64,000 nt of DNA, from positions 5,146,001 through 5,210,000 of the forward strand of contig NZ_CP114903.1 in NCBI RefSeq assembly GCF_027497255.1, read 5' to 3'. The stretch is from Micromonospora sp. WMMD882 (GTDB lineage Bacteria > Actinomycetota > Actinomycetes > Mycobacteriales > Micromonosporaceae). The notes beneath the pieces are model-generated. The model was given only the letters and a program-made list of their open reading frames with translations. It did not search any database and was not told the DNA's origin. The stretch's first letter is position 1. Each line of letters starts with the position of its first letter. A program made the position numbers and the translations under genes. Positions 7,256-24,807 of the stretch are shown in pieces.

Positions 7256-9271
7256 ATGGAACGTACGCGTTTCTTCCGCCGCCCGGTGGTCTGGATCATC
7301 CTGGTGATCGCCGGCGCGATTCTGCTCAGCCAGCTGTTCACCGGCGGGCCGAGCTACCACAGGGTCGACACGTCGGTCGCGCTCGACCGGCTCAACACCG
7401 CCCAGATCGAGAAGGTGGTCTTCCAGGACAAGGAGCAGACGCTCCGGATCGACCTGAAGGACGAAGCCGAGTTCGGCGACACCACCACCGACAAGATCGA
7501 GGCGCAGTTCCCGTACGAGGTCGGCGACCAGGTCTGGGACCAGGCGCAGGCGGCCAAGGCGGCCAACCGGGTCTCCGGCCCGGTGGACACCGAGGTCTCC
7601 TCGGACAGCGTCCTGGTCACCCTGCTGGTCAACCTGCTGCCGATCGCCCTGCTCGTGCTCCTGCTGCTGTTCTTCATGTCGCAGATGCAGGGCGGCGGTT
7701 CCCGGGTGCTCAACTTCGGCAAGTCCAAGGCAAAGATGATCACCAAGGACACGCCGAAGACCACGTTCGCCGACGTGGCCGGGTCCGAGGAGGCCGTCGA
7801 GGAGCTGCACGAGATCAAGGACTTCCTCCAGAACCCGGCGAAGTACCAGGCGCTCGGGGCGAAGATCCCCAAGGGCGTCCTGCTCTTCGGCCCCCCCGGC
7901 ACCGGTAAGACGCTGCTCGCCCGGGCCGTCGCCGGCGAGGCCGGGGTGCCGTTCTACTCCATCTCCGGCTCCGATTTCGTCGAGATGTTCGTCGGTGTCG
8001 GCGCGAGCCGGGTCCGCGACCTGTTCGAGCAGGCCAAGGCGAACGCCCCGGCGATCGTCTTCGTCGACGAGATCGACGCCGTCGGCCGGCACCGGGGCGC
8101 CGGCATGGGCGGCGGCCACGACGAGCGTGAGCAGACCCTCAACCAGCTCCTCGTCGAGATGGACGGCTTCGACACCAAGGGCGGGGTCATCCTGATCGCC
8201 GCCACCAACCGGCCGGACATCCTCGACCCGGCGCTGCTGCGCCCGGGCCGGTTCGACCGGCAGATCCCGGTGGACGCCCCCGACATGGAGGGCCGCAAGG
8301 CGATCCTGCGGGTGCACGCCAAGGGCAAGCCGTTCGCCCCCGACGTCGACCTCGACTCGGTGGCCCGGCGTACCCCCGGCTTCAGCGGCGCCGACCTGGC
8401 CAACGTGATCAACGAGGCGGCCCTGCTCACCGCCCGTAAGGACGAGCGGGCGATCACCAACGACTCCCTCGAGGAGTCGATCGACCGGGTCGTCGCCGGC
8501 CCGCAGCGCCGGACCCGGGTGATGGGCGACCAGGAGAAGAAGATCACCGCGTACCACGAGGGTGGGCACGCGCTGGTCGCCTGGGCGCTGCCGCACGCCG
8601 CGCCGGTGCACAAGGTGACCATCCTGTCCCGGGGCCGGTCGCTGGGACACACCCTGGTGCTCCCCACCGAGGACAAGTACACCCAGACCCGGGCCGAGAT
8701 GATCGACACGCTCGCGTACGCGCTGGGCGGCCGGGCCGCCGAGGAGCTCGTCTTCCACGAGCCGACCACCGGCGCCGGCAACGACATCGAGAAGGCCACC
8801 CAGCTCGCCCGCGCGATGATCACGCAGTACGGCATGAGCTCCAAGCTCGGCGCGATCAAGTACGGCACCAGCGGCGACGAGCCGTTCCTCGGCCGCAACA
8901 TGGGCCACGAACGGGACTACTCCGACTCCGTGGCCGCCGAGATCGACAGCGAGATGCGGGCCCTGATCGAGCTGGCGCACGACGAGGCCTGGGAGATCCT
9001 GGTCGAGTACCGGGACGTCCTGGACAACATGGTCCTCGAACTCATCGAGAAGGAGACCCTGTCCACCGCCGACATGGCCCGGATCTGCGCCCGGGTGGTG
9101 AAGCGTCCGCCGATGGCCCCCTACAACGGCTTCGGCAAGCGGCAGCCCTCCACCGAGCCGCCGGTGCTCACCCCCGCCGAGAAGGACGCCCTCAAGGCGC
9201 AGGCCCAGGCCGACGGCGCGCAGGCGGCGGTCGGCGGCGGTTCCGCCAACCACTCGGACGGCACACACTGA
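7256..9271 (+). CDS. ftsH: ATP-dependent zinc metalloprotease FtsH
   Basis: Membrane-anchored AAA+ protease that degrades misassembled membrane proteins and short-lived regulators. The 671-residue protein has transmembrane helices near residues 11-28 and 117-142 flanking an extracytoplasmic segment, the Walker A motif G212-PPGTGK-T219, a Walker B motif (IVFVDEID), the AAA second region of homology, and the zinc site H434-E-G-G-H438. A Gly/Ala/Gln-rich tail ends the protein. ATG 7256 ([10 protein letters not shown]) is the usual actinobacterial start, although its ribosome site is weak. Downstream lie a strong hairpin and then folE. Confidence 0.96.
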
Positions 9272-9393: not shown

Positions 9394-9969
9394 GTGGAGG
9401 AGACCGTCGACCTCGACCGGATCGAGAAGGCCGTACGCGAGATCCTGATCGCGGTCGGCGAGGACCCGGACCGCGACGGCCTCGTACAGACCCCGGCCCG
9501 GGTGGCCCGGGCGTACGCGGAGCTCTTCGCCGGCCTACGGGTCGACCCCAGGCAGGTGCTCAACACCACCTTCGAGGCCCACCACGAGGAGCTGGTGCTG
9601 GTCCGGGACATCGACGTGATGAGCCTGTGCGAGCACCACCTGCTCCCCTTCCGGGGCAGCGCCCACATCGGCTACATCCCCGGCCCGGACGGACGGATCA
9701 CCGGCCTGTCCAAGCTCGCCCGCCTGGTCGAGGTCTACGCCCGTCGCCCCCAGGTGCAGGAACGGCTCACCTCCCAGATCGCCGACCTGCTGATGGAGCG
9801 CCTCGCGCCCCGGGGCGTGATCGTGGTGCTGGAGTGCGAGCACATGTGCATGGCCATGCGGGGCATCCAGAAGTCCGGCGCGCAGACCATCACCTCGGCC
9901 GTCCGGGGCACCCTGCAACGGGACGCCAAATCCCGGGCCGAAGCGATGGCCCTGATCCTGCCACGCTGA
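9394..9969 (+). CDS. folE: GTP cyclohydrolase I
   Basis: First enzyme of tetrahydrofolate synthesis: GTP to 7,8-dihydroneopterin triphosphate plus formate. The 191-residue protein carries the zinc ligands C79-E-H-H82 (in the motif CEHHLLPF) and C148 (in ECEHMCM), and the substrate motif [12 protein letters not shown]. The start chosen is GTG 9394, giving the usual length. The frame is open back to 9268, where a CTG overlaps the ftsH stop, and translates as plausible protein ([12 protein letters not shown]), so a longer form from a non-standard start cannot be excluded. In related genomes folP usually follows; here a 13.6 kb opposite-strand block intervenes. Confidence 0.95.
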
Positions 9970-9973: not shown

Positions 9974-10717
9974 TCAACCGGCCGCGCCGAACAGCAGGAT
10001 CCCGGCGGCGGTCAGCACCGCCGGAAGACCGCACACCAGCACGCCGAGCCAGCGGCTGCGGTCCCGGCGGTCGTCCACCCCGGTCGGCCGACGGAACGCG
10101 CCCACCACGGTCGACCGCCCCAGGAGCAGCGCAACCGCGGCCACCGGCAGCCCGAGCAACGCCGCGAGCACGCCACCAGCGCCGTCGACCCCGACCAACC
10201 CGAGGACGATCGCCTGCGCCACCGGCGCGAGCAGCGCCAACACCCCGCAGACCAACAGGTCACGCACGCCCGTCCACCCCGCCGACCGGAACGCTCGCCG
10301 GGCGTCGAGGATCCCCTCCGCCGTGTCCGCGCACTGCCGGGCCGTCCGCAGCTCCGCCAGCACCGCCGCCGGGCCAGCCGTCATCGACCGGGCCGACGCG
10401 CTCACCTCCGGCGGTGACGGCACCAGGGACATCGCCGGTACGCCCAGCTCACGCAGCCGCGACTGCTGGTGGACCAACCGGGCGCGTACGACGTCCAACT
10501 CGTCCCGCGCGGCCCGGACGGAACGGGCCTGCTCGCCGGCGGCGAGCGACGAGCCACGGCGTATCCCGTCGAGCTGACGGGCCGCGGCCAGGTACTCGGT
10601 CCACGCCGTGGCCCCCTGGCCGTGGGCGGACGACCCCGTCGGCTCCCCGGTTCCGCCGGTCCGCCCGGCTTCTCCGCCCGTGCCGGCCACCCCGGACGCG
10701 CTGACGTCTCCGCTCAT
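9974..10717 (-). CDS. Membrane protein with helical N-terminal domain (hypothetical, secretion-locus associated)
   Basis: A 247-residue protein of unknown function. Residues about 1-38 are Gly/Ser-rich. Residues 40-140 are charged and helical, suggesting a coiled coil (ARDELDVVRARLVHQQSRL). The C-terminal third has three hydrophobic segments (LLVCGVLALLAPVAQAIVLGLVG, VLAALLGLPVAAVALLLG and VLVCGLPAVLTAAGILLFG). Its ATG overlaps the stop of the FtsK-like gene as ATGA, so the two are translationally coupled and probably cooperate. It converges on folE with a 4-bp gap. Confidence 0.75.
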   Translation of the reverse strand: MSGDVSASGVAGTGGEAGRTGGTGEPTGSSAHGQGATAWTEYLAAARQLDGIRRGSSLAAGEQARSVRAARDELDVVRARLVHQQSRLRELGVPAMSLVPSPPEVSASARSMTAGPAAVLAELRTARQCADTAEGILDARRAFRSAGWTGVRDLLVCGVLALLAPVAQAIVLGLVGVDGAGGVLAALLGLPVAAVALLLGRSTVVGAFRRPTGVDDRRDRSRWLGVLVCGLPAVLTAAGILLFGAAG

Positions 10718-13700
10718 GCCGGCTGCCCCGGTCGCACCTGTTCCTCCGGCCGTGCCTGCTTCTGCGGTCGTGCCGGCTCCCCGGGCGGTGCTGGCGTCCC
10801 GGACCGTGGCTGCCGCTTCGGCGCCTTCTGCTTCGGTGGCGCCGGCCTCCCCGGTCGTGCCTGCTGGTCCGGTGGCGCCGGCGTCTCCGGGGTCGCCGGC
10901 TTCTCAGGTGCTGCCTGCTGGTCCGGTGGCGCCGGTGGCTCTGGGGTCGCCGGATCCCGGTGGTTGGCGAACGGCACCAGCACCCGCCCCGGCCCGCCCG
11001 GCGAATCCCAGCACAGCGCCCGGCCCGGCCGGGGCGACCAGTGCACGGCGCGGCCGACCACCGGCGTCAACTGACTGCCCGGCACGTCGACCACGACCAA
11101 CGTGGCCAACCTGGTGACGTCGTCCTCCCGGTCGAGCAGCGCGCCGAGCGACGAAGCCGACCGCCACCAGCCCAGCAGATGCCGACCGGCCGTCGGGCCG
11201 GCGCGCAGCAGAGCGCGCAGCGGCTCGTCCGGAACCCCACCCGGACCATCCGCCCCGAACACCACCAGGTAGGCGGGACGGTCGTCGCGGAACGCGGTAA
11301 GCAACCCGGCCAGGTCGACCGTCTCGACGTCCTGCCGGTCGGCCAACTCGACGGCGAGATCTCCGGCGACACCGGCCGCGCTGGCCGTCAGCGCGGCCAC
11401 CACGAACCGGGCCGTACCCGGCCGGTGGTGCGCCGCGACACTCCGGGCAGCGGTCACCAGCATGCCGGTCGCCTCCGAGCCGGTGCCCAACACCACCAGA
11501 TTCCGGCCGGACGCCGGGACGAGGGGCACCGACACCGTGGTCCGGAACACGTCCACCGCCCGGCCGAGCAGCGCCGCCGGAGGACGGCTCGGGTCCGCGA
11601 GGGCGGCCCGGTGACACGGATCGTTGTCCAGTACCGGGCGGGCGTAGCCGGCGAAGACCACCGGCGGGGACGAATCCGTCGGCCGGGCCGCCCAGAGCCG
11701 GCGTCGCAGGCCGGTCAGCGCCGCCGGATCGTCCAACGGATCCGGGAACCGCACCATCCGCTCGTGCCCACGCGTCGCGCCACGCGGACCGCCGAGACCA
11801 CCCGCCGTGTTGATCACCGCGCTGCCCAGGGCCAGCCCGGCGGCAGCATCGTTCGTCGGCTCCAGCACCGCGGCGCCGCCCGGCAACGCCACCCGCACCG
11901 GGAACTGACCGAGCACCGAGTCACGGCCCGTCGCCCCGTCCCGGCCCGTCGCCCCGGAGCGACCCGCGGCACCGTCCCGGGCGGTGGACGCCAACCCGAG
12001 ATCCCCGTCGCCACACAGGATCAGATGAACCCCGTACGAGCGTCCGAGCCGGGCCAACGCCTCCAACCGGCAGGCCAGATCGACGGCGAGCCGGTCCCGC
12101 TGCGACGGACGGTGCCCCGGATCGGTCGCCCGGAACAGCAACGGAAGATTGTCGACCACGCAGACGATCCGGGGCAGCGGCTGATGCTGCCGCAACTCGG
12201 CGAAACGTTGCCCACCGGCCCGTTGGCCGGCCTCCTCACGCCGACGTGCCTCGGCCTCCAGATGACCCAGGAGATCCTGCACGTACTCCCGGTCGGCGGC
12301 GAGCGCGGCCGTTCTGACCTGCGGAACCCACGACCGGTCCCGCCGGGTCTGCAGGAACTCGGTGAACGACTCGCTGTCGGCCATGTCGACCAGGTGCAGG
12401 ACCAACTCGTCCGGGCCGTACCGGGTGGCGAGACCGAAGAGCACGTTGGTCAGGAAATCCACCCGACCGCTGCCCGGTCGACCACTGACCAACCAGTGCG
12501 GGGTCAGCTCGGTCAGCCCCAGGGTCACCGACCGCCCGTCCGCGTCCCCGACCACCGTGGAAAGTCCTTCGGCGGAACTGGCCGACCAGAGCGGCGTCTC
12601 CGCGTCCGGCAACAGCGTGGCCAGGGTGAGGTGCGCGCCGGCCGCGACCCGGCGGGCCAGCCGACGGCAGACCGAGTCGACCAGCTCGACAGGCGGGTCC
12701 GTCTCGGGCAGGACCGGAGAGTTCAGGCCCACCGGCGGCGCCGCGCCCGGCCCGGCGAACGACGTCCCGGGCGGATCGCCCAGCAGCGCGTACCCGTCAC
12801 GGATCGTGAGGGTCGTACCGTACGGGAGGGGGGTAGCGCCGGAGAGGCCGGCCTCGACTCCAGCAGCGTCCGCCGGCCCCACCCGGGCTCCGACGGCGTG
12901 GTCGGGGCCCGCCGTGGCGTCCCTGGTTAACGTACGGTCGACGGCGGACCGGGGGGCGGGGGGCGCCGCCGACCCGGAAGCGGAACGTCGACGCGCACGC
13001 GACGGCGCCGACCCGCCGGCGCCGGTCGGAGCCGTGACGCCGGGCGGGGCCGTGACGCCGGGCGGAGCGGTGCCGGCGGTGGCGGAAGCCACCGAGGTGA
13101 GAGCGGGGGTGGACGCGTCGACGACGGACGCGGACCCCGAAGTGATCGCCCCGGCCGCAGTGGGCGGGCCCGGCCAGCCGACGACGACGAGATGCAGACC
13201 CGAGTGATGGCCGCACCGCGCCAACGCCCTGACCCGCGTCAACTCGTCCGGGCCGGTCCCCTCCGGCCACCGGGCGACGACGAGCAGCATCCGCCGATCG
13301 TGTCGACGCTGCCCGGTGACCCCGGCCGCGACCCACTGCTCGGCCTCGTCCAGCACCCACCGCAGACCGGTCAGATCGGTGGCTGGCGGCGGCAGCAGAC
13401 CGGCGTCCGCCAACGCCGCGAACGGCGCGAACGTCCCGCTTGACGGAGCGGTCGCCGACGTGCCCGGCGAACCGACGCCCCGGCCGCCGGCCCGCTCCTC
13501 GTCCCCGGCGGGAGGCGTCGAAACCGGGACCGCGCGGACGCCGCGCCCCGGTCCTCCCAGGCCCCTTCCGGAGGACGTCCGATCGTCCTCCCGGCCGGCG
13601 ACGGTCGGGGCGTCGTCCAGGCGGGCGCTGGCGCGGTCGTCGTCCGTGCCGTCGCGAGCCGGGTCGATGCCGGCGCCGTAGGCGGTCGGGTCGTCGCCGG

Positions 13701-14217
13701 TATCGGCGGTGGTCGCGCCGTCGGCGCCGGTGCTCGTCGGGCCGTCGATGATCGTCGGGTCGTCGGTGGTCGGGGCGCCAGCCCCGTCGACTGCGCGCAC
13801 CAGCAGCGCGCCGGCCGGCGCGGCGGCCAGCAGCCGTAGCAGCACCGCACGGAGCAGGCCGGACACCTGAGGGTCGCCGGCATCGGCGTCGATGGCCAGG
13901 TGGCCGGTGTCGAACAGGGGCACCAGGGCGGGAAAACGCGCGTCGTCCAGCGGGACGGCCGTGCCGACCCGGACGAAGGCGGGTACCCGGTCGGAGGCTG
14001 GCACGTCCAGCGTGAGCGTGTCCAGAGCGTCCCCCGCCCAGCCCGGCGCCAGCACCTCCGCGGCACGGCGCAGCCGGTCGGCCAGCTCGTGTTGCCGGCG
14101 CTGATCGGCAGGAGCCGGTCGGGTGTCTTCGAGCAGGCCGGCGGCGGCGGTCGCCACGGCGGCGGCCCGGCGGTGCAGGGCGGCGGCGCGGCTGGTACGA
14201 CCCCTCATGTCGGCCAC
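10714..14217 (-). CDS. FtsK/SpoIIIE-domain protein with degenerate ATP sites
   Basis: A 1,167-residue protein. The central and C-terminal parts resemble the tandem RecA-like folds of FtsK/SpoIIIE, EccC and TcpA motors. One typical stretch is HWLVSGRPGSGRVDFLTNV, followed by a VPQVRTAALAADREYVQDLL..EAEARRREE region. The first P-loop reads GRPGSGR (the invariant Lys is Arg) and its Walker B is VCVVDN without the acidic pair. The second P-loop position reads GTGSEATG, with no Lys. Long Asp/Thr/Ala-rich and Pro-rich linkers and a Pro/Gln-rich tail are present. GTG 14217 was chosen for its GAGGTGG ribosome site; ATG 14208 is the alternative. It could be a coupling or scaffold protein of the adjacent secretion locus. 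Confidence 0.8.
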   Translation of the reverse strand: MADMRGRTSRAAALHRRAAAVATAAAGLLEDTRPAPADQRRQHELADRLRRAAEVLAPGWAGDALDTLTLDVPASDRVPAFVRVGTAVPLDDARFPALVPLFDTGHLAIDADAGDPQVSGLLRAVLLRLLAAAPAGALLVRAVDGAGAPTTDDPTIIDGPTSTGADGATTADTGDDPTAYGAGIDPARDGTDDDRASARLDDAPTVAGREDDRTSSGRGLGGPGRGVRAVPVSTPPAGDEERAGGRGVGSPGTSATAPSSGTFAPFAALADAGLLPPPATDLTGLRWVLDEAEQWVAAGVTGQRRHDRRMLLVVARWPEGTGPDELTRVRALARCGHHSGLHLVVVGWPGPPTAAGAITSGSASVVDASTPALTSVASATAGTAPPGVTAPPGVTAPTGAGGSAPSRARRRSASGSAAPPAPRSAVDRTLTRDATAGPDHAVGARVGPADAAGVEAGLSGATPLPYGTTLTIRDGYALLGDPPGTSFAGPGAAPPVGLNSPVLPETDPPVELVDSVCRRLARRVAAGAHLTLATLLPDAETPLWSASSAEGLSTVVGDADGRSVTLGLTELTPHWLVSGRPGSGRVDFLTNVLFGLATRYGPDELVLHLVDMADSESFTEFLQTRRDRSWVPQVRTAALAADREYVQDLLGHLEAEARRREEAGQRAGGQRFAELRQHQPLPRIVCVVDNLPLLFRATDPGHRPSQRDRLAVDLACRLEALARLGRSYGVHLILCGDGDLGLASTARDGAAGRSGATGRDGATGRDSVLGQFPVRVALPGGAAVLEPTNDAAAGLALGSAVINTAGGLGGPRGATRGHERMVRFPDPLDDPAALTGLRRRLWAARPTDSSPPVVFAGYARPVLDNDPCHRAALADPSRPPAALLGRAVDVFRTTVSVPLVPASGRNLVVLGTGSEATGMLVTAARSVAAHHRPGTARFVVAALTASAAGVAGDLAVELADRQDVETVDLAGLLTAFRDDRPAYLVVFGADGPGGVPDEPLRALLRAGPTAGRHLLGWWRSASSLGALLDREDDVTRLATLVVVDVPGSQLTPVVGRAVHWSPRPGRALCWDSPGGPGRVLVPFANHRDPATPEPPAPPDQQAAPEKPATPETPAPPDQQARPGRPAPPKQKAPKRQPRSGTPAPPGEPARPQKQARPEEQVRPGQPA

Positions 14218-14414
14218 CGGCGCCACCTCTCTTCCCGACAGACCCTCCCGAGCAGAGACGGTATCCCAGGCGGATGTGGTGTTCCGGGAAGCGCGGCGGC
14301 GCGCGCGCCGAGATGTGACGAACGTCGTCGATCCGGCGAAGTCGGACAAGTCAACCACCCCGTCGGCCGGATCCGGGCATTGGGTACGGAGCCGCCAACC
14401 GATAGCCTCAGGGG

Positions 14415-14981
14415 GTGGAATCAGTGCAGCCCTCCGCCGGTTCCCAGGTGTCCCGCGTCCCGGTGCAGCGGGCCCCCTCCGAGCAGCCGGCGCCACCCCC
14501 GGGCCAGCCGGCTCCGGTGCCACCACGCCGTCGCCTTCGGACGGCGCTTACGGTGGCGGGGGTGTCGCTCGCGGTGCTTCTGCTCAGTGGAGCGGTGACC
14601 GTGTTCGTCCTCTACGACCGCGCCAGCGCCCCCGACCGCACCTCCCCCGACGTCGTGGTGGTGAAGTATCTGCAAAACTTTCTGGTTGATCGTAACGATG
14701 CGCGCGCTGATTTGCTCACGTGCGACGGAGTGGAAGGCCTGGCTGCGATCGAGCAGTTCCGCAAAGATCTGATTGATCGAGAACGAGCGTTAAATGTGTC
14801 GGTTTCAATCAATATTGAAGGATTGCTCGTCTTGGAGGCGACAGAGTCGACTGCCGTGGTAACTGCGGTCATAAGAAGAAGTGCTCTGATCGACGGAGTA
14901 CAGCAGAGCCTGACCGACCGGTGGCGTTTCGACCTTCAAGAGTTGGACGGCTGGCGTATCTGCACCGCGATCAAATCCTGA
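14415..14981 (+). CDS. Single-pass membrane protein with NTF2/VirB8-like extracytoplasmic domain
   Basis: A 188-residue protein with a Pro-rich cytoplasmic N-terminus, one transmembrane helix at residues about 43-67 (TALTVAGVSLAVLLLSGAVTVFVLYD) and a compact exported domain. The pattern of helix pair then strands ending ..SLTDRWRFDLQELDGWRICTA resembles NTF2-fold domains such as VirB8/TcpC. That assignment is by pattern only. From about 14650 to the stop the base composition drops sharply (about 46% GC over 14761-14880), unlike its own first half and its neighbours. GTG 14415 follows a TAGCCT -10-like box at 14403, so the transcript may be nearly leaderless. It is divergent from the FtsK-like gene. 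Confidence 0.7.
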   Translation: MESVQPSAGSQVSRVPVQRAPSEQPAPPPGQPAPVPPRRRLRTALTVAGVSLAVLLLSGAVTVFVLYDRASAPDRTSPDVVVVKYLQNFLVDRNDARADLLTCDGVEGLAAIEQFRKDLIDRERALNVSVSINIEGLLVLEATESTAVVTAVIRRSALIDGVQQSLTDRWRFDLQELDGWRICTAIKS

Positions 14982-14986
14982 ATCCT

Positions 14987-15580
14987 CTACTCGGTCCAGA
15001 GCAGGTGAGCGGGCACTTCGATGGTGCTCGGGAGGGCACCGCGCCAGGCCCAGCGGTACCAGTCCAGCTCTGCCATTACCCGGAGGTGGATGTCCCCGTC
15101 GCTGCCCGGGTACGGCTCGCTGACCGCGCGCAGGTCACGGCGTTCCGCCGGTCCCACCACCTGTACCACCCGGCGGCCGGTGACCGGGCCAGCCTCGACG
15201 ACCGGCGTCGGCCGTGGAGGCGTCGGGCCGCCCGGGAAGACCGGTCGAGTGTCGGGCGAGGTGCCGGTGGTCGGGCGGTGCCCCAACTTCTCCACCCAGA
15301 TCTGCTCGATCGGCACCAGCGGCGCGAACATCTCCACCAGCTCGGACTCGGCTCGGTACCACTCCCCTTCGGGGAGGACCGGGACGTAGGTCCGGCTGTT
15401 CTGCGTCACCCGCTGGTCGGCCCGCAGATCACCCCGCCAGCCCGTACCGGGCAGCCCGACCACGACCCGCCGGCCGCGCAACTCCACCTGCCCGGTCGCA
15501 GGCACCAACTGCACCGGCCGGGGCGGAAGCGGTGCCCAGGCCTGCGGCGCGACGAACGGGCCGGGCCGGTGGCCGGTCAC
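14987..15580 (-). CDS. Hypothetical protein at the end of the secretion operon
   Basis: A 197-residue protein with no recognised domain. It is rich in Pro, Arg and Trp, has no signal peptide or membrane helix, and contains stretches such as WYRAESELVEMFAPLVPIEQ and LDWYRWAWRGALPS that suggest a folded, possibly protein-binding module. The start is GTG 15580, 13 bp after the stop of the peptidoglycan hydrolase gene, so it is the last gene of the leftward operon. It converges on the 14415 gene with a 5-bp gap. The role is unknown. Confidence 0.6.
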   Translation of the reverse strand: MTGHRPGPFVAPQAWAPLPPRPVQLVPATGQVELRGRRVVVGLPGTGWRGDLRADQRVTQNSRTYVPVLPEGEWYRAESELVEMFAPLVPIEQIWVEKLGHRPTTGTSPDTRPVFPGGPTPPRPTPVVEAGPVTGRRVVQVVGPAERRDLRAVSEPYPGSDGDIHLRVMAELDWYRWAWRGALPSTIEVPAHLLWTE

Positions 15581-15593
15581 CTCGACGGACGCC

Positions 15594-16772
15594 TCACGCC
15601 GCGCCCTTCAACGGCGCGCCCCGTTCCTTCATGAACGGCACCGGGTTCACCGCCCCGCGACTGGTCCGGTCTTCGTTGACGTGCACCTCGAAGTGCAGGT
15701 GCGGGCCGGAGGAGTTGCCGCTGCTGCCCACCTCGCCGATGACGTCGCCCGCCTTCACCAGTTGACCGGAGGCGACCCGGGGCTGCTTCACCATGTGACA
15801 GTAGCGGGTGACGTACCCGCCGGCGTGCAGCATGTCGACGAACCAGCCGCAGCCGCCCTTGTTCGGCCAGCCGTCGACGTTGCAGCTCAGCCGGCCCCGG
15901 TTGTCCGGGTCGCACCGCGACACCAGGACCCGCCCGCTGGCGGCGGCCCGGATCAGCGTGCCCTTGGGGGCCGCGATGTCGACGCCGTTATGCCGGGGGC
16001 GTTCGGCCGTCCGGAAACCGGACCCGACACCGCCGGGGATGGGCGCCGTCCACCCCGACGCGGCGATCTCCCCACTGGCCGCGGCGTCACAGACCGCCCT
16101 GCCGGAAATCTGCACCGTCCGGGCGGCTCCGCCGGCCAGCGCGTCCACGATCCGGCTGGCCAGCTCCTCGTGTTTGGCGTACGCGTCGGGAAAGGCGCTG
16201 ATCTGCACCTTCTGCGCGGCGCGGGTCAGCGGCAGTTGCTGCCAGTTGTCGACCTTGACGAGTTTCTCGTAGAACTTCCGGGCCGCGTAGGCGGGATCCA
16301 TCCGTTGCCGTGCCGTACCCCAGCCGGCCCGCTGCTGGAACAGGCCCAGTGAGTCGTGATCCCAACCGACGCCTTCGTTGGGAATGTCCTTGGAGCCGGC
16401 GACGGTCGGGTTCGCCAGATTGCGCAACCCGGACTCCTGCATCGCGGTGGCCACCGCGATGACCCAGGCCCGGGCAGGTAGACCCATGTCCTGGCCGACC
16501 TTGATGATTACTGCCGCGTTGCGTAGCTGCCGGTCACCGTACCGACTGAACCGTGGCATGTCGCCGGTCACGTCGACGCTGTTCTCGGTGCCGCAGCTCA
16601 ACGCGCCCGCGTTGACCACCTGCTCGGTCTCGCCACCGAGTTCGGTGAGGAGGAAGGCGCCGGCCCCACCGGTGCAGCAGAGCAGCGCCAGCGCCGCGGT
16701 GAGCGCCGCTGCCAGCGCACCGACCCTGACCTTGCGGCGGGGAGACACGGATCCCCCGGTGAGACCGCTCAT
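15594..16772 (-). CDS. Peptidoglycan hydrolase: transglycosylase-like plus M23/LytM endopeptidase
   Basis: A 392-residue membrane-anchored enzyme. A hydrophobic anchor or signal spans residues about 17-42. It is followed by a lysozyme-like module (AVATAMQESGLRN, GLFQQRAGWG) near residues 105-190, and a C-terminal M23 domain with zinc-site motifs H261-N-G-V-D265 and H358-L-H360. Such enzymes open the wall for envelope-spanning machines and fill the VirB1/TcpG role in type IV systems. Its ATG overlaps the stop of the upstream gene (ATGA), tying it to the VirB-like operon. Confidence 0.88.
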   Translation of the reverse strand: MSGLTGGSVSPRRKVRVGALAAALTAALALLCCTGGAGAFLLTELGGETEQVVNAGALSCGTENSVDVTGDMPRFSRYGDRQLRNAAVIIKVGQDMGLPARAWVIAVATAMQESGLRNLANPTVAGSKDIPNEGVGWDHDSLGLFQQRAGWGTARQRMDPAYAARKFYEKLVKVDNWQQLPLTRAAQKVQISAFPDAYAKHEELASRIVDALAGGAARTVQISGRAVCDAAASGEIAASGWTAPIPGGVGSGFRTAERPRHNGVDIAAPKGTLIRAAASGRVLVSRCDPDNRGRLSCNVDGWPNKGGCGWFVDMLHAGGYVTRYCHMVKQPRVASGQLVKAGDVIGEVGSSGNSSGPHLHFEVHVNEDRTSRGAVNPVPFMKERGAPLKGAA

Positions 16773-17323
16773 GCCCGCTCCCAGTCCACCACGTCAACCA
16801 GCCAGCGTCCTTCGGACGCCACGAGTTCCAGTCGGAGTCGACCGGTGTCCAGCGGAACCGACGCTTCGACGAACGACTCGGTGCGCGGCCGTAGCGTCGA
16901 CGGCCCGGTGGCCCGCTCGGCCGGCACGGCAGCCGGCTCCGCCCCGTCCATCTTGTCCAGCAGGCCGGGCGTCGCGAACGGGCGCAGAGTCGACAGCCAC
17001 TCCTCGCTGGTCGCCCCCCGACCGCCGAGCCAGGCGCTGACGAAGCGATCGGTGACCTGCTCCGGCGGATCGGCCCCCGGGCTGGTCACCGGGGACGGAG
17101 GCGCGGCCGTGGCGATCGCGCCGTCGTCACCGAAGTTCGGGTCGACGGTCGTGATCGGCTCGTCGGGTCGGTTGCTGAGTCCGGCCCCGGGGTCGAGCGG
17201 GCCGGCGACCAGCCGGGCGGCTCCGATGACCCCGAGGACCAGCACGGCGATACCCAGCGCGACGCCCACCCGGGATCTCAGCACCCGGGTCAGCAGGAAC
17301 TCGACCGCCCGTCGCACCACCAT
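16769..17323 (-). CDS. VirB8/TcpC-like single-pass membrane protein
   Basis: A 184-residue protein with one N-terminal transmembrane helix (VALGIAVLVLGVIGAARLVAG, residues about 20-40), a Pro-rich linker and an exported domain. The exported domain reads like an NTF2/VirB8 fold: VTDRFVSAWLGG, then LSTLRPFATPGLLDKM, then strand-rich LRLELVASEGRWLVDVV. VirB8-type proteins nucleate the inner-membrane complex of type IV systems. The fold call is inferred from pattern and gene context. ATG 17323 forms a TGATG junction with the VirB6-like gene; GTG 17326 is an alternative start. Confidence 0.7.
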   Translation of the reverse strand: MVVRRAVEFLLTRVLRSRVGVALGIAVLVLGVIGAARLVAGPLDPGAGLSNRPDEPITTVDPNFGDDGAIATAAPPSPVTSPGADPPEQVTDRFVSAWLGGRGATSEEWLSTLRPFATPGLLDKMDGAEPAAVPAERATGPSTLRPRTESFVEASVPLDTGRLRLELVASEGRWLVDVVDWERA

Positions 17324-19296
17324 CACCTCGTCTCGGTGCGCACCCGCGCCTCGGTACGCACCCGCGGGGCCGACGGCTCAGGAGCCCGGCCCGGAGTGGA
17401 TCCCGGCCGGTAGATCACGAAGGACGGGCTCTCCTCGGGTACGTCCGGCTCCGTCCAGGTGGCCGGTTGCCGCCTACGCGGCCGCGGCACGGCTGCCGGA
17501 CGCCCGGTGCGGTCCGGCGGCTCGGTCCCGACGGTGGTCTCGTCCGGTCGTTCGTGACCATCCGGACGTTTCCGGTTCTCCAGTCGCGGCTCGGCCCGCC
17601 GTGCCGGGGCGTGCGCGGGATCCTCCAACCGGGCCTCGGGTCGGAGACGTCCCGGTTCGGCCACCACACCCCGCTTCCGGTCTGCCGGCGACTCCCGGCG
17701 AGCTGTCTCGGACTCCTCGATCCGGGCTGCGGTGCGTACGTCCCGGAAGAGCTTCCGGTGCCAGGACGCCCCGGCCGCCTCGCCGCCTTCCTTTCCGCCG
17801 AGCTGGGTGATCCGGCGGTACGGCCGCAGCAACAACCAGCCGACCACGCCGCAGAGCCACACCAGCACCACCTGGAGCCAGCCGGGAAGTGTGGGAGTGT
17901 TCATGATCAGGTCGACTGCGAAGAGGTAGATCGCTGCCCCGGTGCCGAAGATGGCGATGTTGAACACCGCCGCGACCACGGCGTTGCCGAGGCGGCGAAG
18001 ACCGGCGCTGGCCGGCCGCATCAGGCCGATGGTGCCGAGAATCGGCGCCGCGATCACCGCCCACCGGAAGATCAGGAAGCCGAGCAGCACCAGCAGGGAG
18101 GCGGTCAGGTCGAACATCGCGAAGAGCACTGCAGCGAGGACCCCGATGAAGCCGGCCCCGATTCGGTCCATGTCTCGAATCCCTTGCAGGTACTCGTACG
18201 CTTCCGGATCTTCGGTCTTGATCTGCTCGGCGACCTTCCTCCATTGCTGCTGTTTGGCTTCGATAACGGTCGTCCGGGTGGCTGGGTTGGCTCGGATGGA
18301 CTGAACTTCTCCCCAGGTCAACGAGCGAGAGTCGTAGAGAGCTGGACCGTACTTCTTGGCGGTTTCGCTATCGGCTGAGCCGAGTAGACCGCGCAGCCAG
18401 TTCCGGTACAGCATGGTCTCGGTAACGGTGTCGCTTGCCCTTGTGGCCGGAGGGCGGAGATCTTTGCACTTGTTGGGGTCAGGGTCGATGCATCGCCCAG
18501 GAGCAGGTTCCTTCGACTGAGGTCCAACCGCATCGTGTACGACACCCAGCGTCGTCACCAGCGTTCCATCGGCAATATTGGCAGATTTGACTGGCCATGC
18601 TGCCAGCGCGGTCACTGCGACCATTACGAGCAGTGCCCAACCGGCGGTGGTCATCGCATTGCTCAGATCTGACTGGCGAGATCGCCACAGGAGGTATAGG
18701 CCGACAACGCAGAGGGTGACGATGCCGAAGACGCTGAAAACTTTCTCGTAGACAGCCTTTGTGGCCTGGTCCACCAGTGGGTCGGCCCAGCCCCACATGG
18801 CCTGTGGGCCCCAAGCTCGTTCGCGTAGGGCGTTCGACGCACCAATGATGGCCGTCGCGATCATAAATTCGCCGTTAGCGACGGTAGTGGTGAACTTGTA
18901 GTCAGGGTGGAGGATGCCCGAGGCGCAACCACCGTCTACGTCGTAGGTGGAATAGCCATAGCCGGCATAGCCGTAAAGACTATAACGGCCCGCAACGCCG
19001 CCGGCGGTGTCTGCGCTGGGTGCGCTCGCAAACCAGCCAGCCAAACCAGCATCAGGCGCGCCTGGGGTTGGCGGCGACAAGCATGCGGCTCGCGCGGCGG
19101 TAACGTCCTCCAGCTTGGCGACGCAGGCGCGGAAGTCGGCCTGCCATTCCTGCGTGGTGCATAGCTCCGCCCGCGCCTGGGCCACCGGGGGTGGAGCCGC
19201 CGCCGCTCCGACCGCGGGCCAGACGATCGTGGCCACCGCGAGTACGCCGACGGTGAGGAGGAGTGCCGCGATCCGTGCCGGGGCCCTCGCCACCAT
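17323..19296 (-). CDS. VirB6/TrbL-like polytopic membrane protein
   Basis: A 657-residue protein with a signal-like first helix (residues about 8-35), a Cys-containing exported segment, and at least six further hydrophobic segments. Two are near 185-235. A dense set lies near 375-490, including GFIGVLAAVLFAMFDLTAS and VVLVWLCGVVGWLLL. The C-terminal 160 residues are hydrophilic, Arg/Glu/Pro-rich and probably cytoplasmic. This layout, its size and its place after the VirB4-like gene fit a VirB6/TrbL channel subunit. The middle of the gene (roughly 18125-18990) is clearly less GC-rich than the ends. ATG 19296 begins one base after the upstream stop. Confidence 0.75.
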   Translation of the reverse strand: MVARAPARIAALLLTVGVLAVATIVWPAVGAAAAPPPVAQARAELCTTQEWQADFRACVAKLEDVTAARAACLSPPTPGAPDAGLAGWFASAPSADTAGGVAGRYSLYGYAGYGYSTYDVDGGCASGILHPDYKFTTTVANGEFMIATAIIGASNALRERAWGPQAMWGWADPLVDQATKAVYEKVFSVFGIVTLCVVGLYLLWRSRQSDLSNAMTTAGWALLVMVAVTALAAWPVKSANIADGTLVTTLGVVHDAVGPQSKEPAPGRCIDPDPNKCKDLRPPATRASDTVTETMLYRNWLRGLLGSADSETAKKYGPALYDSRSLTWGEVQSIRANPATRTTVIEAKQQQWRKVAEQIKTEDPEAYEYLQGIRDMDRIGAGFIGVLAAVLFAMFDLTASLLVLLGFLIFRWAVIAAPILGTIGLMRPASAGLRRLGNAVVAAVFNIAIFGTGAAIYLFAVDLIMNTPTLPGWLQVVLVWLCGVVGWLLLRPYRRITQLGGKEGGEAAGASWHRKLFRDVRTAARIEESETARRESPADRKRGVVAEPGRLRPEARLEDPAHAPARRAEPRLENRKRPDGHERPDETTVGTEPPDRTGRPAAVPRPRRRQPATWTEPDVPEESPSFVIYRPGSTPGRAPEPSAPRVRTEARVRTETR

Positions 19297-19297
19297 G

Positions 19298-22200
19298 TCA
19301 CGCCTCCAGGTCCGACAGGATGCTCGGTAGGTTCGCGGCGTTCGGGCTGGCCGCGGGGGTGGTGTCGAGGTGTTCCAGCAGCCCGTCGACGTACGAGACG
19401 TCTACCCGGACCTTCTGCACCCGGCCGTCCACGTCCCGCATGACGAACTCGCGGAACCCGAGTCGGGCGGCGGACGACGCGTCGGCGGCCGACAGGGACG
19501 CCAGGGTCGCCTCGTAGCCGTCGTCGACCGGCACCCGGAGCAGCCGGAGCGCCTCGGAGGCGATCTCGGCGTCCTCGGCGATCCGCCCGACGAAGACGGT
19601 GGAGACGAGGTTCTGTACGTCCAGGCCGAGAATGTCGCGGGGGTTCTGTGAGGCGACCAGCGCGGCGAGGTTCCACTTCCGGGAGTCCCGGGCGAGCCGG
19701 ACCAGGAACGACCGGCCGGAGCGCCAGCCCTCCATGAAGTGCGCCTCGTCGAGGCCGACCAGTTTCCGCGACGACATGGAACCGCCGTAGCAGCGGCGTA
19801 CGGCCAGCCGGTGCGCGGTGTGCAGCATCGGCAGGGCCAGGGACTCCTCAGCGGACCAGTACTCCCGTTCGATCTTGAGGTCGGGCAGTCGTAGCCCGGC
19901 CATGGTGATCACGGTGAGCGCGGCGTCCGCGCCGAGCAGACCCTCCTGCGGCCGGCCGAAGAACAGCAGAGCCAGCGGCATCTCGGCGGTGTCCAGCAGG
20001 AGGTTCGCCAGCTCCCGGCCGGCGTCGTCGTCGAGCTGCCCCAGGCAGGCGACCACGTCGTCCAGGGTGGACGTCTCCTCGGCGGGCACCTGGCGCACGG
20101 CGTGCCGGAACAGGGTGGCGGTGGACGCCTCCCGGGCCACCTGCGGCGGCACCAGCATCATGCAGATGTCCTGTACCAGCATGCGCCGTTCGGCCCGGGC
20201 GTTGGAGACCGCGATCTCGAACTCCCGGTCGCCGGCCGCCCCGCTGGCGAACTCCGTCCGCAGTGGCGTCGGGATCAGCGAGTACGGCGCGAGCGTGCCG
20301 TGCTCGGAGCCGGTCAGGTTCAACACCCGGGAGTACGGTCGCAGCTCGGGCATCTGGCAGAGCCGGGCCAACGGGCCGGACGGGTCGAGCAGGGTCACCT
20401 GGACGCCCCGCCGGGCGGCGAGGTAGCCGAGCGCGCCCAGCAGGGTCGACTTGCCGCCACCGGGCTCGGCGACGAAGACCGCGAGGCCGGAGCGTTCCCG
20501 TACCTCCATCGGGAAGTGCAGGTCGAGGAAGACCGGTCGGCGGCAGGTGCCGGCGGTCCGGCCGATCAGGTCACCACGCCGGTCACCGACCGTGGAGGCG
20601 GCCTGTGGCAGGGCGGCGGCGAGCAGGTTGACAGGCATCCGGCGGACGTAGCCGGTGTTGGCGATGGGTTCGCCGGGGATGAACTCCCGGGCCAGCCAGT
20701 CCTGGTTCTTGGGGTGCTGCAACGAGATGCGTAGCTCCCGGGAGTAGAGCTGGATCAGCCGGCGGGCCCGTTCCAGGCACTCCTCCCGGGTCCGGCCACC
20801 GACGGCGATCCGGTGCCAGCCGTGCGCGCGCGCCGAGTCGACCGGCAGCCCGGTAGTCATCTCGTCACCGATCACCAGCGCCCGCTTGGCGAGCCGTTCC
20901 AGCTCGGGCGGGGCGTCGATGCCGTGCTCGGCGTAGTCGAGCTGCTGTGAGCGGATCATCCGTAGCCGGTGCTCCAGGTTACGGAAGGAGTCACCGGAGC
21001 CGAGGATGTCGACCCGGGTGGAGATCTCCATCGGCCAGGGCAGTCGTTCGTGGAAGTGCAGCCACGGCTCGTGCTTCTCGGGGATCTCCAGCGGCTCCAT
21101 CCGGCCCACGGCGAGCACGGCGACGTGCCGTTCCTCGCCGGTCATCCGGTTGACCAGCTTGACCGTGGAGCCGTACGGGGTGCGGTACCGCTCGACCTGC
21201 TCGGTGAGGGCGAGCAGGTCGCCGCGTTCCCAGTGCCCGTTGGTGACCGGGGAGAGCTGCCCGGGCGGCGCCATGCAGAGCGCGACCGAGCGGTAGAGCA
21301 GCCATTCCAGCTCACCGGAGGTGACCCGGCGACCGCGCATGCCGAACGCGGCGAGCACCTCGTCGAACTGCTCGACCGTCCGACCGAGCTTGCGCCGTTC
21401 GCCGTCGGCGGTGCCCCGCCCGAAGGCGCGCAGCAGCCGTTCGGTCAGGGAGTCGCCGAGCGACCGCCGGGCGAAGGTGACCCCGAGGTAGGTCTGCCCT
21501 TCGGCGTGGTTCACCGAGAGCAGGTGCCGTTGGGCGGCGACGAGGTGGTCGCTCCATCCGGCGGTGCCCGGCACGTCGGGCAGCGGGCTCGGGGTGTACG
21601 AGTCGATGGTGCGCGCCCACTCGTCGGCGGGGAACGGCCGGGTGGTGCGGCGCAGGTGCAGCCGGAAGCCGGCGAGGCCGGCGTACTGCTCGGAGATCGC
21701 GGAGAGCAGCGCCTCGCGTTCGGCGTCCGGGCGGAAGGCCCAGCGCACCTCGGGGAGCCAGTACCAGGCGGTGACCGTGTTGGGGGTGAAGGTGAGGTGC
21801 CCGGCGATCTCGGTGATGGCCAGTTCGACGGACGGGTCCCGGTCGCCGAACTTGATCTTCGGTGGCCGGATCCGGGTGGGCTGGGTGGGCTTGGCGGATC
21901 GCTCCCGCCTGCCGTCGGTCGAGCGTTGCCGGGGCGGCACCCGCCGGCGCGTCGCCGGCTCGGGTTCTTCCCCGTCGTCGTGGTGGGTCGGCGGGGGCGG
22001 GGTGGGCTCGACCGGTGGTCGGGCGTACGGCAGCCGTTCGCCGACCTGTTCCGGCACCCGTGGCGGTGCGGCGGCCTCCGGGTCGGCCAACGCGGCGGGA
22101 CCGGCCGACCAGGCCTGCGCCGCCGGTTCACCGACCGGGGCCGGAGCCGGGGCCGACGCCGGGGGCGGGGCCGGAGCCGAGGCCGGGGGCGGGGTCGAGG

Positions 22201-22804
22201 CCGGGGCGATGACCGCGGGGGGAAGGGGTGAGGCCGGCGGGCGGGGCGCCGGGGCGCCCGGCGAGGGCCGGGTGGGCGCCGGCTCGACACCCGGAGCAGA
22301 CCGGCCCAGGGGTGGCTCGGCGGGGCGGTCGGCGCCCGGCCCGGGGCCGGGTCGGGCCGGGGCCGGGTGGGGGCGGACGGGGGTCGGCTCGGTGACCGGG
22401 CCGGACCGGGAGGCCGTCGGCTCCACGGGGGCCGGCGCCGGCTGGTGCGGGATCGGCAGCGGGTCACGCCCGGGTCGGCGCAGGGGCGCGATCGGCTGCC
22501 GGTTGCCGCCCGGCCGGGTGCCGCCGAAGAGGTCGAGGAAGGGGGAGTCGATGTCCGGGCTGTCCGGCGCAGTGGCCGGCGTGGTCGGCTCTGGGCCGGC
22601 CGGGGCGGGGCGGCCCCGGGCCGGTCGGGGCGCCTGGAAGACGCCGACCCCGCCGTGCCCGGGCGAGGTGACCAGCGCCGGGTCGAGGCTCATCTCGTCA
22701 CCCGGCCCCGGGTCGGGGTAGTCGAACGAGCGCGCACGGTGACCGCGCGGGGCGGCGTGCTGCCCTGCCGGGTGCGAAGGCCCCGGCGTCGCTGCGCGGC
22801 TCAT
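19298..22804 (-). CDS. VirB4/TraC-like type IV secretion ATPase
   Basis: A 1,168-residue protein. The first ~310 residues are Pro/Ala/Arg-rich and disordered. The rest is a VirB4-type core ending in a RecA-like motor with Walker A at about residues 779-788 (AEPGGGKSTL) and Walker B LVGLDEAHF near residue 1019, followed by the VirB4/TraC-like stretch LVRLARDSRKWNLAALVASQ. Unlike the FtsK-like neighbour, the ATP site is intact, so this is the likely energy source of the machine. It acts at the inner face of the membrane with VirB3- and VirB6-type partners. ATG 22804 overlaps the stop of an 18-codon ORF. Confidence 0.85.
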   Translation of the reverse strand: MSRAATPGPSHPAGQHAAPRGHRARSFDYPDPGPGDEMSLDPALVTSPGHGGVGVFQAPRPARGRPAPAGPEPTTPATAPDSPDIDSPFLDLFGGTRPGGNRQPIAPLRRPGRDPLPIPHQPAPAPVEPTASRSGPVTEPTPVRPHPAPARPGPGPGADRPAEPPLGRSAPGVEPAPTRPSPGAPAPRPPASPLPPAVIAPASTPPPASAPAPPPASAPAPAPVGEPAAQAWSAGPAALADPEAAAPPRVPEQVGERLPYARPPVEPTPPPPTHHDDGEEPEPATRRRVPPRQRSTDGRRERSAKPTQPTRIRPPKIKFGDRDPSVELAITEIAGHLTFTPNTVTAWYWLPEVRWAFRPDAEREALLSAISEQYAGLAGFRLHLRRTTRPFPADEWARTIDSYTPSPLPDVPGTAGWSDHLVAAQRHLLSVNHAEGQTYLGVTFARRSLGDSLTERLLRAFGRGTADGERRKLGRTVEQFDEVLAAFGMRGRRVTSGELEWLLYRSVALCMAPPGQLSPVTNGHWERGDLLALTEQVERYRTPYGSTVKLVNRMTGEERHVAVLAVGRMEPLEIPEKHEPWLHFHERLPWPMEISTRVDILGSGDSFRNLEHRLRMIRSQQLDYAEHGIDAPPELERLAKRALVIGDEMTTGLPVDSARAHGWHRIAVGGRTREECLERARRLIQLYSRELRISLQHPKNQDWLAREFIPGEPIANTGYVRRMPVNLLAAALPQAASTVGDRRGDLIGRTAGTCRRPVFLDLHFPMEVRERSGLAVFVAEPGGGKSTLLGALGYLAARRGVQVTLLDPSGPLARLCQMPELRPYSRVLNLTGSEHGTLAPYSLIPTPLRTEFASGAAGDREFEIAVSNARAERRMLVQDICMMLVPPQVAREASTATLFRHAVRQVPAEETSTLDDVVACLGQLDDDAGRELANLLLDTAEMPLALLFFGRPQEGLLGADAALTVITMAGLRLPDLKIEREYWSAEESLALPMLHTAHRLAVRRCYGGSMSSRKLVGLDEAHFMEGWRSGRSFLVRLARDSRKWNLAALVASQNPRDILGLDVQNLVSTVFVGRIAEDAEIASEALRLLRVPVDDGYEATLASLSAADASSAARLGFREFVMRDVDGRVQKVRVDVSYVDGLLEHLDTTPAASPNAANLPSILSDLEA

Positions 22805-22857
22805 GCGATCGCCTCACCCGGATCACTCGACCGTTCGATCGGCGTACGACCGGTCAT
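22801..22857 (-). CDS. 18-codon bridging ORF between VirB3-like and VirB4-like genes
   Basis: An ATG at 22857 overlaps the stop of the VirB3-like gene (ATGA), and the TGA at 22803-22801 overlaps the VirB4-like ATG (ATGA). The peptide would be MTGRTPIERSSDPGEAIA. It may be a real micropeptide or only a coupling device that carries ribosomes across the gap. No similarity is recognised. Confidence 0.4.
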   Translation of the reverse strand: MTGRTPIERSSDPGEAIA

Positions 22858-23216
22858 GCCAGCTCCTCCCGGATCCTGATCCGGCTGCCGACCAGACGTG
22901 GGTCGCGGAACTCGGCGGCCGGCTCCCGGGTCCGTCGCCAGTCGGTCAGCGCGGTGCGGATCACCATGCGCGCCGGCCGGTCCGGGTCGACGTACCGGAA
23001 GATGAACGAGGTCGTCACGATGGCGAGCGCGATCTCCCAGGCCGGAAAGAGCTCGACCTGCAGCGTGAACAACCAGTGGATGAACATGTAGAGGGGGACG
23101 AGCAGGATGAACAGGCCGTACTGCGCGTACGGCAGGTGAACGGGAAGGGTGTATCCCGGCGGGCCGAGGTAGACCAGGCGGGCCCGGTAGATGTCGTCGT
23201 CGGTGCGCAGCCGCAT
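22854..23216 (-). CDS. VirB3/PrgI-like small membrane protein
   Basis: A 120-residue protein with a short polar N-terminus, two adjacent hydrophobic segments at residues about 30-70 (YGLFILLVPLYMFIHWLFTL and AWEIALAIVTTSFIFRYV) and a basic cytoplasmic tail. A two-helix protein encoded just before VirB4 is the hallmark position of VirB3 (PrgI in actinobacterial and Gram-positive systems). ATG 23216 has a GGTAGAG-like ribosome site and lies 11 bp after the pilin-like gene. Confidence 0.7.
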   Translation of the reverse strand: MRLRTDDDIYRARLVYLGPPGYTLPVHLPYAQYGLFILLVPLYMFIHWLFTLQVELFPAWEIALAIVTTSFIFRYVDPDRPARMVIRTALTDWRRTREPAAEFRDPRLVGSRIRIREELA

Positions 23217-23227
23217 CTCTACCGGGC

Positions 23228-23542
23228 CTATTCGAAGATCAGGTCGATCAGGTAGTCACCGACGAAGAAGAGCGTGGCGGCTCCGGCGATGAAGGCCAAC
23301 CCGATGATCGCGATGGCCGAGCTGGTCAGCACCTTCGACACCTCGCCGCGACTGGCCCGGCCGATGAAGATGACGCCGAGCACGGCGAGGAGGATCGGTG
23401 CGATCTTGCTGGCGAAGAAGGTGACGACACCGTCGGTGTCGATCCCCTTGGGGGCCGGCTCGGCGAGCGGGGTCGACGCCAGGGCGTGGAGCAGCGTGCC
23501 GACACCTGTCGACACCGTCTCCACGAGCGCTGTGGCGATCAC
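23228..23542 (-). CDS. VirB2-like pilin or small two-helix membrane protein
   Basis: A 104-residue protein and the first gene of the leftward secretion operon. It has two hydrophobic helices separated by a short basic loop (GRASRGEVSK): VVTFFASKIAPILLAVLGVIFI near residues 38-60 and SAIAIIGLAFIAGAATLFFVG near 74-95. This two-helix, short-loop layout matches VirB2/TrbC pilins. The GTG start at 23542 was chosen because GGGGAGG lies 5 bases upstream; the longer open frame is not coding-like. No classical signal peptidase site is obvious. Confidence 0.65.
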   Translation of the reverse strand: MIATALVETVSTGVGTLLHALASTPLAEPAPKGIDTDGVVTFFASKIAPILLAVLGVIFIGRASRGEVSKVLTSSAIAIIGLAFIAGAATLFFVGDYLIDLIFE

Positions 23543-23889
23543 TTGAACCTCCCCATGACGCGGCCGGCGGAGCCGCGGCGTTACGTGAGTGAACCTGACG
23601 GGAATGCTGCTCGACGCGTCGTCACTGACGCTGCGTCGCCCCGAACGCCACCCAAGGTGGCGGATTGTGGGCTTTTCCTCCCGCTTTGGCCCCCCTTCGA
23701 GCTCCGACGGTCTCGGTGCCGAAGCAATTCCAAAGCGTACGGGCCGCCCCCCTCTGGAACAAGCGGCGAGGGGTATGCCCGTTTCCGCCCCGGCGTCCGA
23801 TCGTACACGTGTTCCAATACGCACGTCAGGGCCGTGCCGGTCGCCCCCGGGCCGACCCGGGCCGACGCCCCGACGGGTACGGTGCACCG
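23543..23889. promoter_or_regulatory. Divergent control region between the secretion operon and folP
   Basis: This 347-bp gap has no gene. It must hold the promoters of both the leftward secretion operon and the rightward fol operon. It contains an operator-like inverted repeat, CGCCACC-CAA-GGTGGCG, at 23646-23662. It is less GC-rich than the flanking genes in places (around 23660-23745). No confident -35/-10 pair could be assigned. Confidence 0.5.
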
Positions 23890-24807
23890 GTGACCGACCT
23901 GGTAGGCGCGGACGACCCCGTGGTGATGGGCGTCCTCAACGTCACGCCCGACTCGTTCTCCGACGGCGGCCGGTACGCGGACCTGGCCGCCGCGGTCCGG
24001 CACGGCACGCGGCTGCACGCCAGCGGGGCGCACCTGGTCGACGTGGGCGGTGAGTCCACCCGGCCCGGCGCGGACCGGGTCGACGCCGACACCGAGGCGG
24101 CCCGGGTGCTGCCGGTGGTCCGGGAGCTCACCGCCGCCGGAGTGCCGGTCAGTATCGACACCACCCGGGCCCGGGTCGCCGAGGCGGCGCTGGACGCCGG
24201 CGCCGCGGTGGTCAACGACGTCTCCGGTGGCCTGGCCGACCCGGACATGGCCCGGGTGGTCCGGGACGCCGGCCGCCCCTGGGTGCTGATGCACTGGCGT
24301 GGCCACTCCCGGGGCATGCGCGACCTGGCGACGTACGGCGACGTGGTGACCGACGTACGGACCGAGCTGGCCCGGCGGATCGACGACGCGCTCGCGGCCG
24401 GGGTGGCGGCCGACCGGATCGTCGTCGACCCCGGTCTGGGCTTCGCGAAGACCGCCGACCACAACTGGGAGCTCACCCGGCGGCTGCCCGAGCTGCTGAG
24501 CCTCGGCTTCCCGCTGCTGTTCGCCGCGAGCCGCAAGTCGTACCTGGGACGGCTGCTCGCCGGCCCGGACGGCGAGCCGCGCCCCACCGACGGACGGGAG
24601 GCGGCCACCATCGCCACCAGCCTGCTCGCCGTGGCGGCCGGGGCCTGGGGGGTACGGGTGCACGACGTGCGGGGCACCGTCGACGCGCTCGCGGTCTGGC
24701 GGGCCAGCGGCCGGCCCCGCCTCGCGGGCCGACCGACCTTGGCCGGGTTTCCGGCCGACGCGGCACGGGGTCCGGCGCGGCCGGACCGGATCGGGGAACG
24801 GGCATGA
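23890..24807 (+). CDS. folP: Dihydropteroate synthase
   Basis: Condenses 6-hydroxymethyl-7,8-dihydropterin pyrophosphate with p-aminobenzoate to give dihydropteroate; it is the sulfonamide target. The 305-residue TIM-barrel protein shows the pterin-site motif VMGVLNVTPDSFSDGG at its N-terminus, the DVGGESTRPGA loop near residue 51, and the GASRK-type region (FAASRKSYLG). The start is GTG 23890; other open codons upstream lack similarity. The stop overlaps folB (ATGA), starting a tightly coupled folP-folB-folK operon. Confidence 0.96.
   Translation: MTDLVGADDPVVMGVLNVTPDSFSDGGRYADLAAAVRHGTRLHASGAHLVDVGGESTRPGADRVDADTEAARVLPVVRELTAAGVPVSIDTTRARVAEAALDAGAAVVNDVSGGLADPDMARVVRDAGRPWVLMHWRGHSRGMRDLATYGDVVTDVRTELARRIDDALAAGVAADRIVVDPGLGFAKTADHNWELTRRLPELLSLGFPLLFAASRKSYLGRLLAGPDGEPRPTDGREAATIATSLLAVAAGAWGVRVHDVRGTVDALAVWRASGRPRLAGRPTLAGFPADAARGPARPDRIGERA

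Follow-up and report, generated by a model that had tools for sequence, protein, structure and literature searches.

In the genome of Micromonospora sp. WMMD882, six adjacent genes (g10 to g5) very probably encode a domesticated chromosomal type IV channel that resembles the Tcp and Prg systems, descends from a conjugation module and is vertically inherited in the Micromonosporaceae. The genes lie in a 64,000-nucleotide stretch (NZ_CP114903.1, positions 5,146,001 to 5,210,000; the window) among ten genes, g1 to g10, that separate two genes we take to be folE and folP, names that follow the initial annotation rather than a family scan. Nine of the ten are on the minus strand and g3 alone is on the plus strand (Table 1). 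The initial annotation had suggested a domesticated machine, and that reading is sustained by a locus that is fixed in most of the family, by purifying selection and by a genome without a TrwC relaxase. Most familiar type IV systems belong to plasmids, to other mobile elements or to pathogens. A type IV channel that is fixed throughout a family of soil bacteria known for producing antibiotics, kept by purifying selection and lacking linked genes for DNA handling, would show the fate of such channels once they cease to transfer DNA.

Relatives of the VirB4-like ATPase (g8) were found on 292 plasmid records, all at less than 60% identity. We compared the locus with four plasmid modules, from Nonomuraea (NZ_CP107854.1), Streptomyces (NZ_CP029341.1 and NZ_CP029542.1) and Prescottella (NZ_KX443401.1). 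By blastp and profile searches, g10, g9, g8, g7, g6 and g5 pair one to one and in the same order with genes of all four modules, with VirB4 proteins 32–37% identical. The initial annotation had likewise described a leftward six-gene type IV-like set starting at 23542. The modules differ from the locus in being plasmid-borne, in the FtsK- or VirD4-type gene present in each fetched stretch and, for three of the four, in a hydrolase end of the C40/NlpC type. No convincing counterpart of g1, g3 or g4 was found in the four modules, and g2 gave only weak matches of a low-complexity type.

Profile scans name g8 (AAA_10, TcpF), g5 (M23) and g2 (FtsK_SpoIIIE), and little besides. The earlier family labels are upheld by profiles for VirB4 (AAA_10, with the TcpF model below its cut-off at 70.5 versus 1100 bits) and for the M23 hydrolase, and not for g9 and g7, which have no significant VirB3 or VirB6 profile match; the plasmid counterparts of these two genes match the TcpE and TrbL profiles weakly only. 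The Tcp system of Clostridium perfringens pCW3 provides in TcpF the nearest named model for g8. It differs in that g8 falls far under the TcpF cut-off and that the module here is chromosomally fixed, with no linked coupling protein shown. Residues 1–300 of g8 are proline-rich. Mean column identity is 91% for g9 (15 sequences) and 79% for g10 (14 sequences); family profile scans gave no match for g10, which was scanned as a longer, 219-residue frame. The predicted model of g6 has a VirB8-like fold, although Foldseek gave no match at E ≤ 0.001 and other NTF2-like folds score almost equally. The predicted structure of g7 (mean predicted local distance difference test score, pLDDT, 45.7) is too poor for fold comparison. 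Searches of PDB sequences returned nothing useful for g6, g7 or g8; for g2 they gave a weak match to YukB/EccC.

Conservation of the locus was examined in 79 loci, the best of 246 relatives from one scan of species genomes. The order and strands of the genes present are kept in 79/79 loci, and all six module genes are seen in 66. folP, all ten genes and folE are seen together in 54/79 loci, with folP and folE matches spaced 12.7–14.4 kb apart, and wherever both fol genes are seen (54 loci) the module stands between them. Synteny across the family agrees with the position in the window, except that the six genes occupy other sites in the genera g33, g35 and g36. Thirteen loci lack a visible g9, g10 and folP; 12 of these start at a contig end and one (L058) does not. 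folE is not seen in 18 of the 79, several of which are cut short; among loci without a visible folE, L008, L009 and L063 show a short g2 match only, and the stretches from Asanoa (L055, L073, L076) contain g1.

The catalytic motifs are retained as well. Walker A (AEPGGGKS) and Walker B (LDEAH) of VirB4 are intact in 78/79 loci, which confirms the intact ATPase of the initial annotation; the exception, L058, has a broken frame. In g5, the M23 motifs are present in 79/79 loci, and the SLT-like part keeps a QES motif in 77/79. Compared with the window, g9 has a median identity of 96% (66 loci), FolE of 91% (61 loci) and FolP of 82% (66 loci). All six module genes are under purifying selection: median ratios of nonsynonymous to synonymous substitution rates (dN/dS) are 0.03–0.23 in Micromonospora-group pairs and 0.07–0.19 in pairs from other genera (nine and five chosen pairs, respectively, fewer for certain genes). 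If the module were what is left of a conjugative element in decay, that could account for the lack of a relaxase and of a plasmid-type coupling gene nearby and for losses in some lineages, but selection on all six genes, intact catalytic motifs and presence in 42 of 44 genera make decay highly improbable.

The VirB3-like gene g9 served as the marker for distribution. It was detected in 37/37 genomes of the genus, the WMMD882 genome included, and, in a sample of 150 genomes from the Micromonosporaceae, in 142 (129/134 of those of high quality; 42/44 genera). The eight misses comprise three incomplete genomes, all three genomes of genus g45 and two of the 15 of genus g33. In an order-level sample (E 1e-20), 83 of 397 genomes were positive, 77 of them in Micromonosporaceae, two in family f11 and four in family f13; in a class-level sample (E 1e-12), the three positives among 394 genomes all belonged to Micromonospora.

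In the VirB4 tree (27 rows), the fol, other chromosomal, infC, prophage-like and plasmid site groups each form one clade, and four changes of site, the lowest number possible, suffice; the branches leading to the plasmid rows are very long and their placement is unsure. This topology fits one ancestral acquisition followed by vertical inheritance with few moves, plus a branch in prophage-like elements. Separate captures from related mobile elements may be an alternative origin. Lineages without the channel and the site changes along the tree open the hypothesis to deletion and comparison.

As the initial annotation had it, the fol genes are normally adjacent: ftsH-folE-folP-folB-folK is continuous in 4/4 genomes outside the family (L092, L099, L100, L101; folB and folK are labels of our own reading). 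Seven stretches (L109–L115, from g33, g35, g36, f11 and f13) carry the six genes at other chromosomal sites with no match to g1–g4; two of them (L109, L110) cover merely 0.8–1.2 kb past g5. In f13 and f11 the six genes stand between riboflavin/histidine-pathway genes and infC-rplT, names read from translations. Since folP is not found beside folE in g33, g35 and g36 while the channel is elsewhere, a break in the fol operon may have preceded the arrival of the channel.

A mobile element at the fol locus was considered and rejected. No tRNA target or attachment repeat was found at the flanks, where the longest exact match is 14 bases, and the site is fixed. Profile scans of the ten locus proteins found no integrase. 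No TrwC relaxase, the sole relaxase family searched genome-wide, was found in the WMMD882 genome, and a control was detected. The absence of relaxase, integrase, tRNA and flanking repeat noted in the initial annotation stands within these bounds, the relaxase part for TrwC and the integrase part for the ten proteins. Five coupling-protein queries were searched at E 1e-6 against 91 chromosomal loci (the 79 plus 12 further stretches); one query matched, in 10 loci, and the six of these matches that were listed fall on g2 or, in the case of L137, on a different gene of the FtsK-like kind. No plasmid-type coupling gene stands beside the module in the chromosomal stretches examined.

Elsewhere in the WMMD882 genome, TraG-D_C matches weakly at two places: at 0.307 Mb it falls on the FtsK-like paralogue, and at 4.788 Mb on a VirD4/HerA-like ATPase. 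The latter belongs to a distinct type IV-like locus at about 4.782–4.789 Mb (L127, 2273–8836) that also holds a T4SS_pilin match (E 7.4e-16) and, below cut-off, a TrbL-like gene. Strong TraG-D_C matches occur in five of 12 other genomes of the genus. A DNA-transfer machine working in trans, with a relaxase supplied by mobile elements and the DNA coupled by a VirD4- or FtsK-like ATPase encoded elsewhere, would draw on these genes and on the conjugation-module ancestry. We consider it unlikely, given that the channel is present in 37/37 genomes of the genus as against a TrwC match in 1/13, and that the 4.78 Mb gene, with its pilin and TrbL-like neighbours, adjoins channel genes of its own type.

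The genes g1–g4 were judged to be folE-region neighbours and not parts of the machine, since the plasmid modules hold no convincing counterpart, the complete g45 genome G082 (L104) has g2-g1 adjoining folE without a channel, and the seven stretches described above have the channel without g1–g4. G082 is the only one of the three channel-less g45 genomes to show g2-g1 beside folE: G112 (L105) has other genes after folE and nothing matching g1–g4 in 18 kb, and the G132 contig (L106) stops beyond folE. In three g33 genomes (L107, L108, L121) g4 lies near folE with no channel in the stretch. The earlier inclusion of the FtsK-like gene and the adjacent membrane genes in the machine is therefore not supported. 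That all ten genes form one machine with g2 and g1 as its coupling complex would agree with their joint presence in the 54/54 loci showing folP and folE and with the FtsK-like coupling proteins found alongside three of the plasmid modules. The separability just described, the lack of a convincing match between g2 and plasmid coupling proteins, and the loss of Walker motifs in 60 of 72 g2 sequences leave it very unlikely, and g2 was likewise judged improbable as a coupling protein.

The g2 motif count covers 71 of the 79 loci and the window (n = 72), with truncated frames left out. Both Walker motifs are lost in 60/60 sequences from Micromonospora, Verrucosispora and Salinispora, together with another isolate of the Micromonosporaceae and the window itself; both are intact in 11/11 from Actinoplanes, Winogradskya, Symbioplanes, Asanoa, Phytohabitans and Plantactinospora; in M. 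pattaloongensis only Walker A is gone. The motif-less copies have a dN/dS of about 0.15, so g2, a candidate dead ATPase, seems to be retained for a role that does not involve ATP hydrolysis. It does not score as a type VII EccC (TIGR03924, 45.1 bits; cut-off 509). In a tree, the 20 fol-linked g2 rows group together as a single clade, to which a second pair of FtsK-like and coiled-coil genes, found elsewhere in three Micromonospora-group genomes, does not belong. This paralogous g2-g1 pair lies at about 0.306–0.309 Mb in the WMMD882 genome (L126, 6599–9983) and also in L128 and L129; its ATPase motifs read as intact.

With no linked coupling ATPase, the channel more likely exports a protein delivered from the membrane, or makes a filament as its actual product, than transfers DNA. 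We put the chances that the channel exports protein or builds a pilus at about even. By analogy with its family, VirB4 would drive the building of a base made of VirB3, VirB6 and VirB8 and pull out g10 subunits to form a filament or conduit. The hydrolase g5 would open the peptidoglycan wall, and the exported protein would reach the channel from the membrane, with no classical coupling ATPase, unless the filament is the end product. The Ptl system of Bordetella is said to function without a VirD4 coupling protein; it differs in being Gram-negative and in having a known toxin substrate. A conduit between hyphal compartments or spores, for development or contact and not for outward secretion, might explain the near confinement of the channel to a single family and two of its relatives and its housekeeping-like conservation. 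No linked developmental gene was found, and we regard this role as quite improbable. A wider formulation, in which the channel has become a core organelle, vertically inherited by the whole family, that needs no coupling ATPase and serves hyphae or spores in contact, development or protein export, beside an FtsK-like motor turned into a retained dead ATPase, is offered tentatively, as less likely than not.

Several points weigh against a domesticated channel that no longer transfers DNA. The module is dispensable, being missing from 3/3 g45 and 2/15 g33 genomes. The VirB3, VirB6 and pilin labels depend on homology to plasmid genes, g9 and g7 having no significant profile. The relaxase search covered TrwC only, and VirD4-like ATPases within the genus may permit coupling in trans. 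Sister copies of the module adjoin an FtsK-type ATPase in prophage-like elements.

The prophage-like copies, in genomes G153 and G164, share the six genes, with VirB4 63–65% identical, and differ in the FtsK-type ATPase and phage tail genes nearby. In G153 (contig C35; L116, L134, L135) this second module has an FtsK-type ATPase (phrog_1358) a few kb away and a primase/polymerase. In G164 (contig C1, about 3.60–3.66 Mb; L117, L132, L133) it is accompanied by an FtsK-type ATPase (phrog_1358), a tape measure protein, tail proteins and a helicase. A phage-like element carrying a type IV channel would, if so, be unusual. Among 50,697 phage records the VirB4 query matched two and the VirB3 query none; a viral-contig scan confirmed none.

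Table 1. Positions in the window of the channel module, its neighbours and flanks
Feature	Positions	Strand	Length (amino acids)	Basis or remark
Six-gene channel module, g10–g5	23542 to 15594	-		order: pilin-like, VirB3/TcpE-like, VirB4, VirB6-like, VirB8, SLT+M23 hydrolase
g10, pilin-like two-helix membrane protein	23228..23542	-	104	blastp vs plasmid s1 genes, E 7e-5 to 4e-3
g9, VirB3/TcpE-like	22854..23216	-	120	blastp vs plasmid counterparts, E 3e-12 to 2e-5
g8, VirB4-like ATPase	19298..22804	-	1168	AAA_10 profile; blastp vs plasmid VirB4, best E 5e-157
g7, VirB6-like membrane protein	17323..19296	-	657	blastp vs plasmid counterparts, best E 1e-56
g6, VirB8-like	16769..17326	-	185	blastp vs plasmid counterparts, best E 2e-16; predicted fold
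g5, wall hydrolase, SLT-like + M23 domains	15594..16772	-	392	Pfam M23 E 1.1e-25; SLT_3 below cut-off
g4, soluble, family-less neighbour	14987..15580	-	197	judged outside channel
g3, membrane protein, weakly Rv0361-like	14415..14981	+	188	NCBIfam E 2.3e-4, below cut-off
g2, FtsK/EccC-like, ATPase motifs lost	10714..14526	-	1270, start uncertain	FtsK_SpoIIIE E 1.3e-10
g1, coiled-coil membrane protein	9974..10717	-	247	paired with g2
folE flank (presumed)	9394..9969	+		
folP flank (presumed)	23890..24807	+		
Promoter-like block TTGTTC-N17-TACGCT	23734..23762	-		192 nucleotides before g10

The promoter-like block upstream of g10 is conserved (24 of 67 upstream regions aligned, 12 of them listed) and, judged by inspection rather than by a statistic, reads like a housekeeping promoter. 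No known structured RNA reached its gathering score between positions 9000 and 24500. A defence system was considered and set aside, as PADLOC yields merely weak ATPase-domain matches for g2 and g8. The neighbour g4, which matched no known family in profile scans, is well conserved, with a mean column identity of 71% and a dN/dS of 0.06–0.09. In g33 (L111, 1278–5363, and L112), genes resembling WXG100 and type VII secretion system components lie near the channel module, with weak Pfam matches below cut-off.

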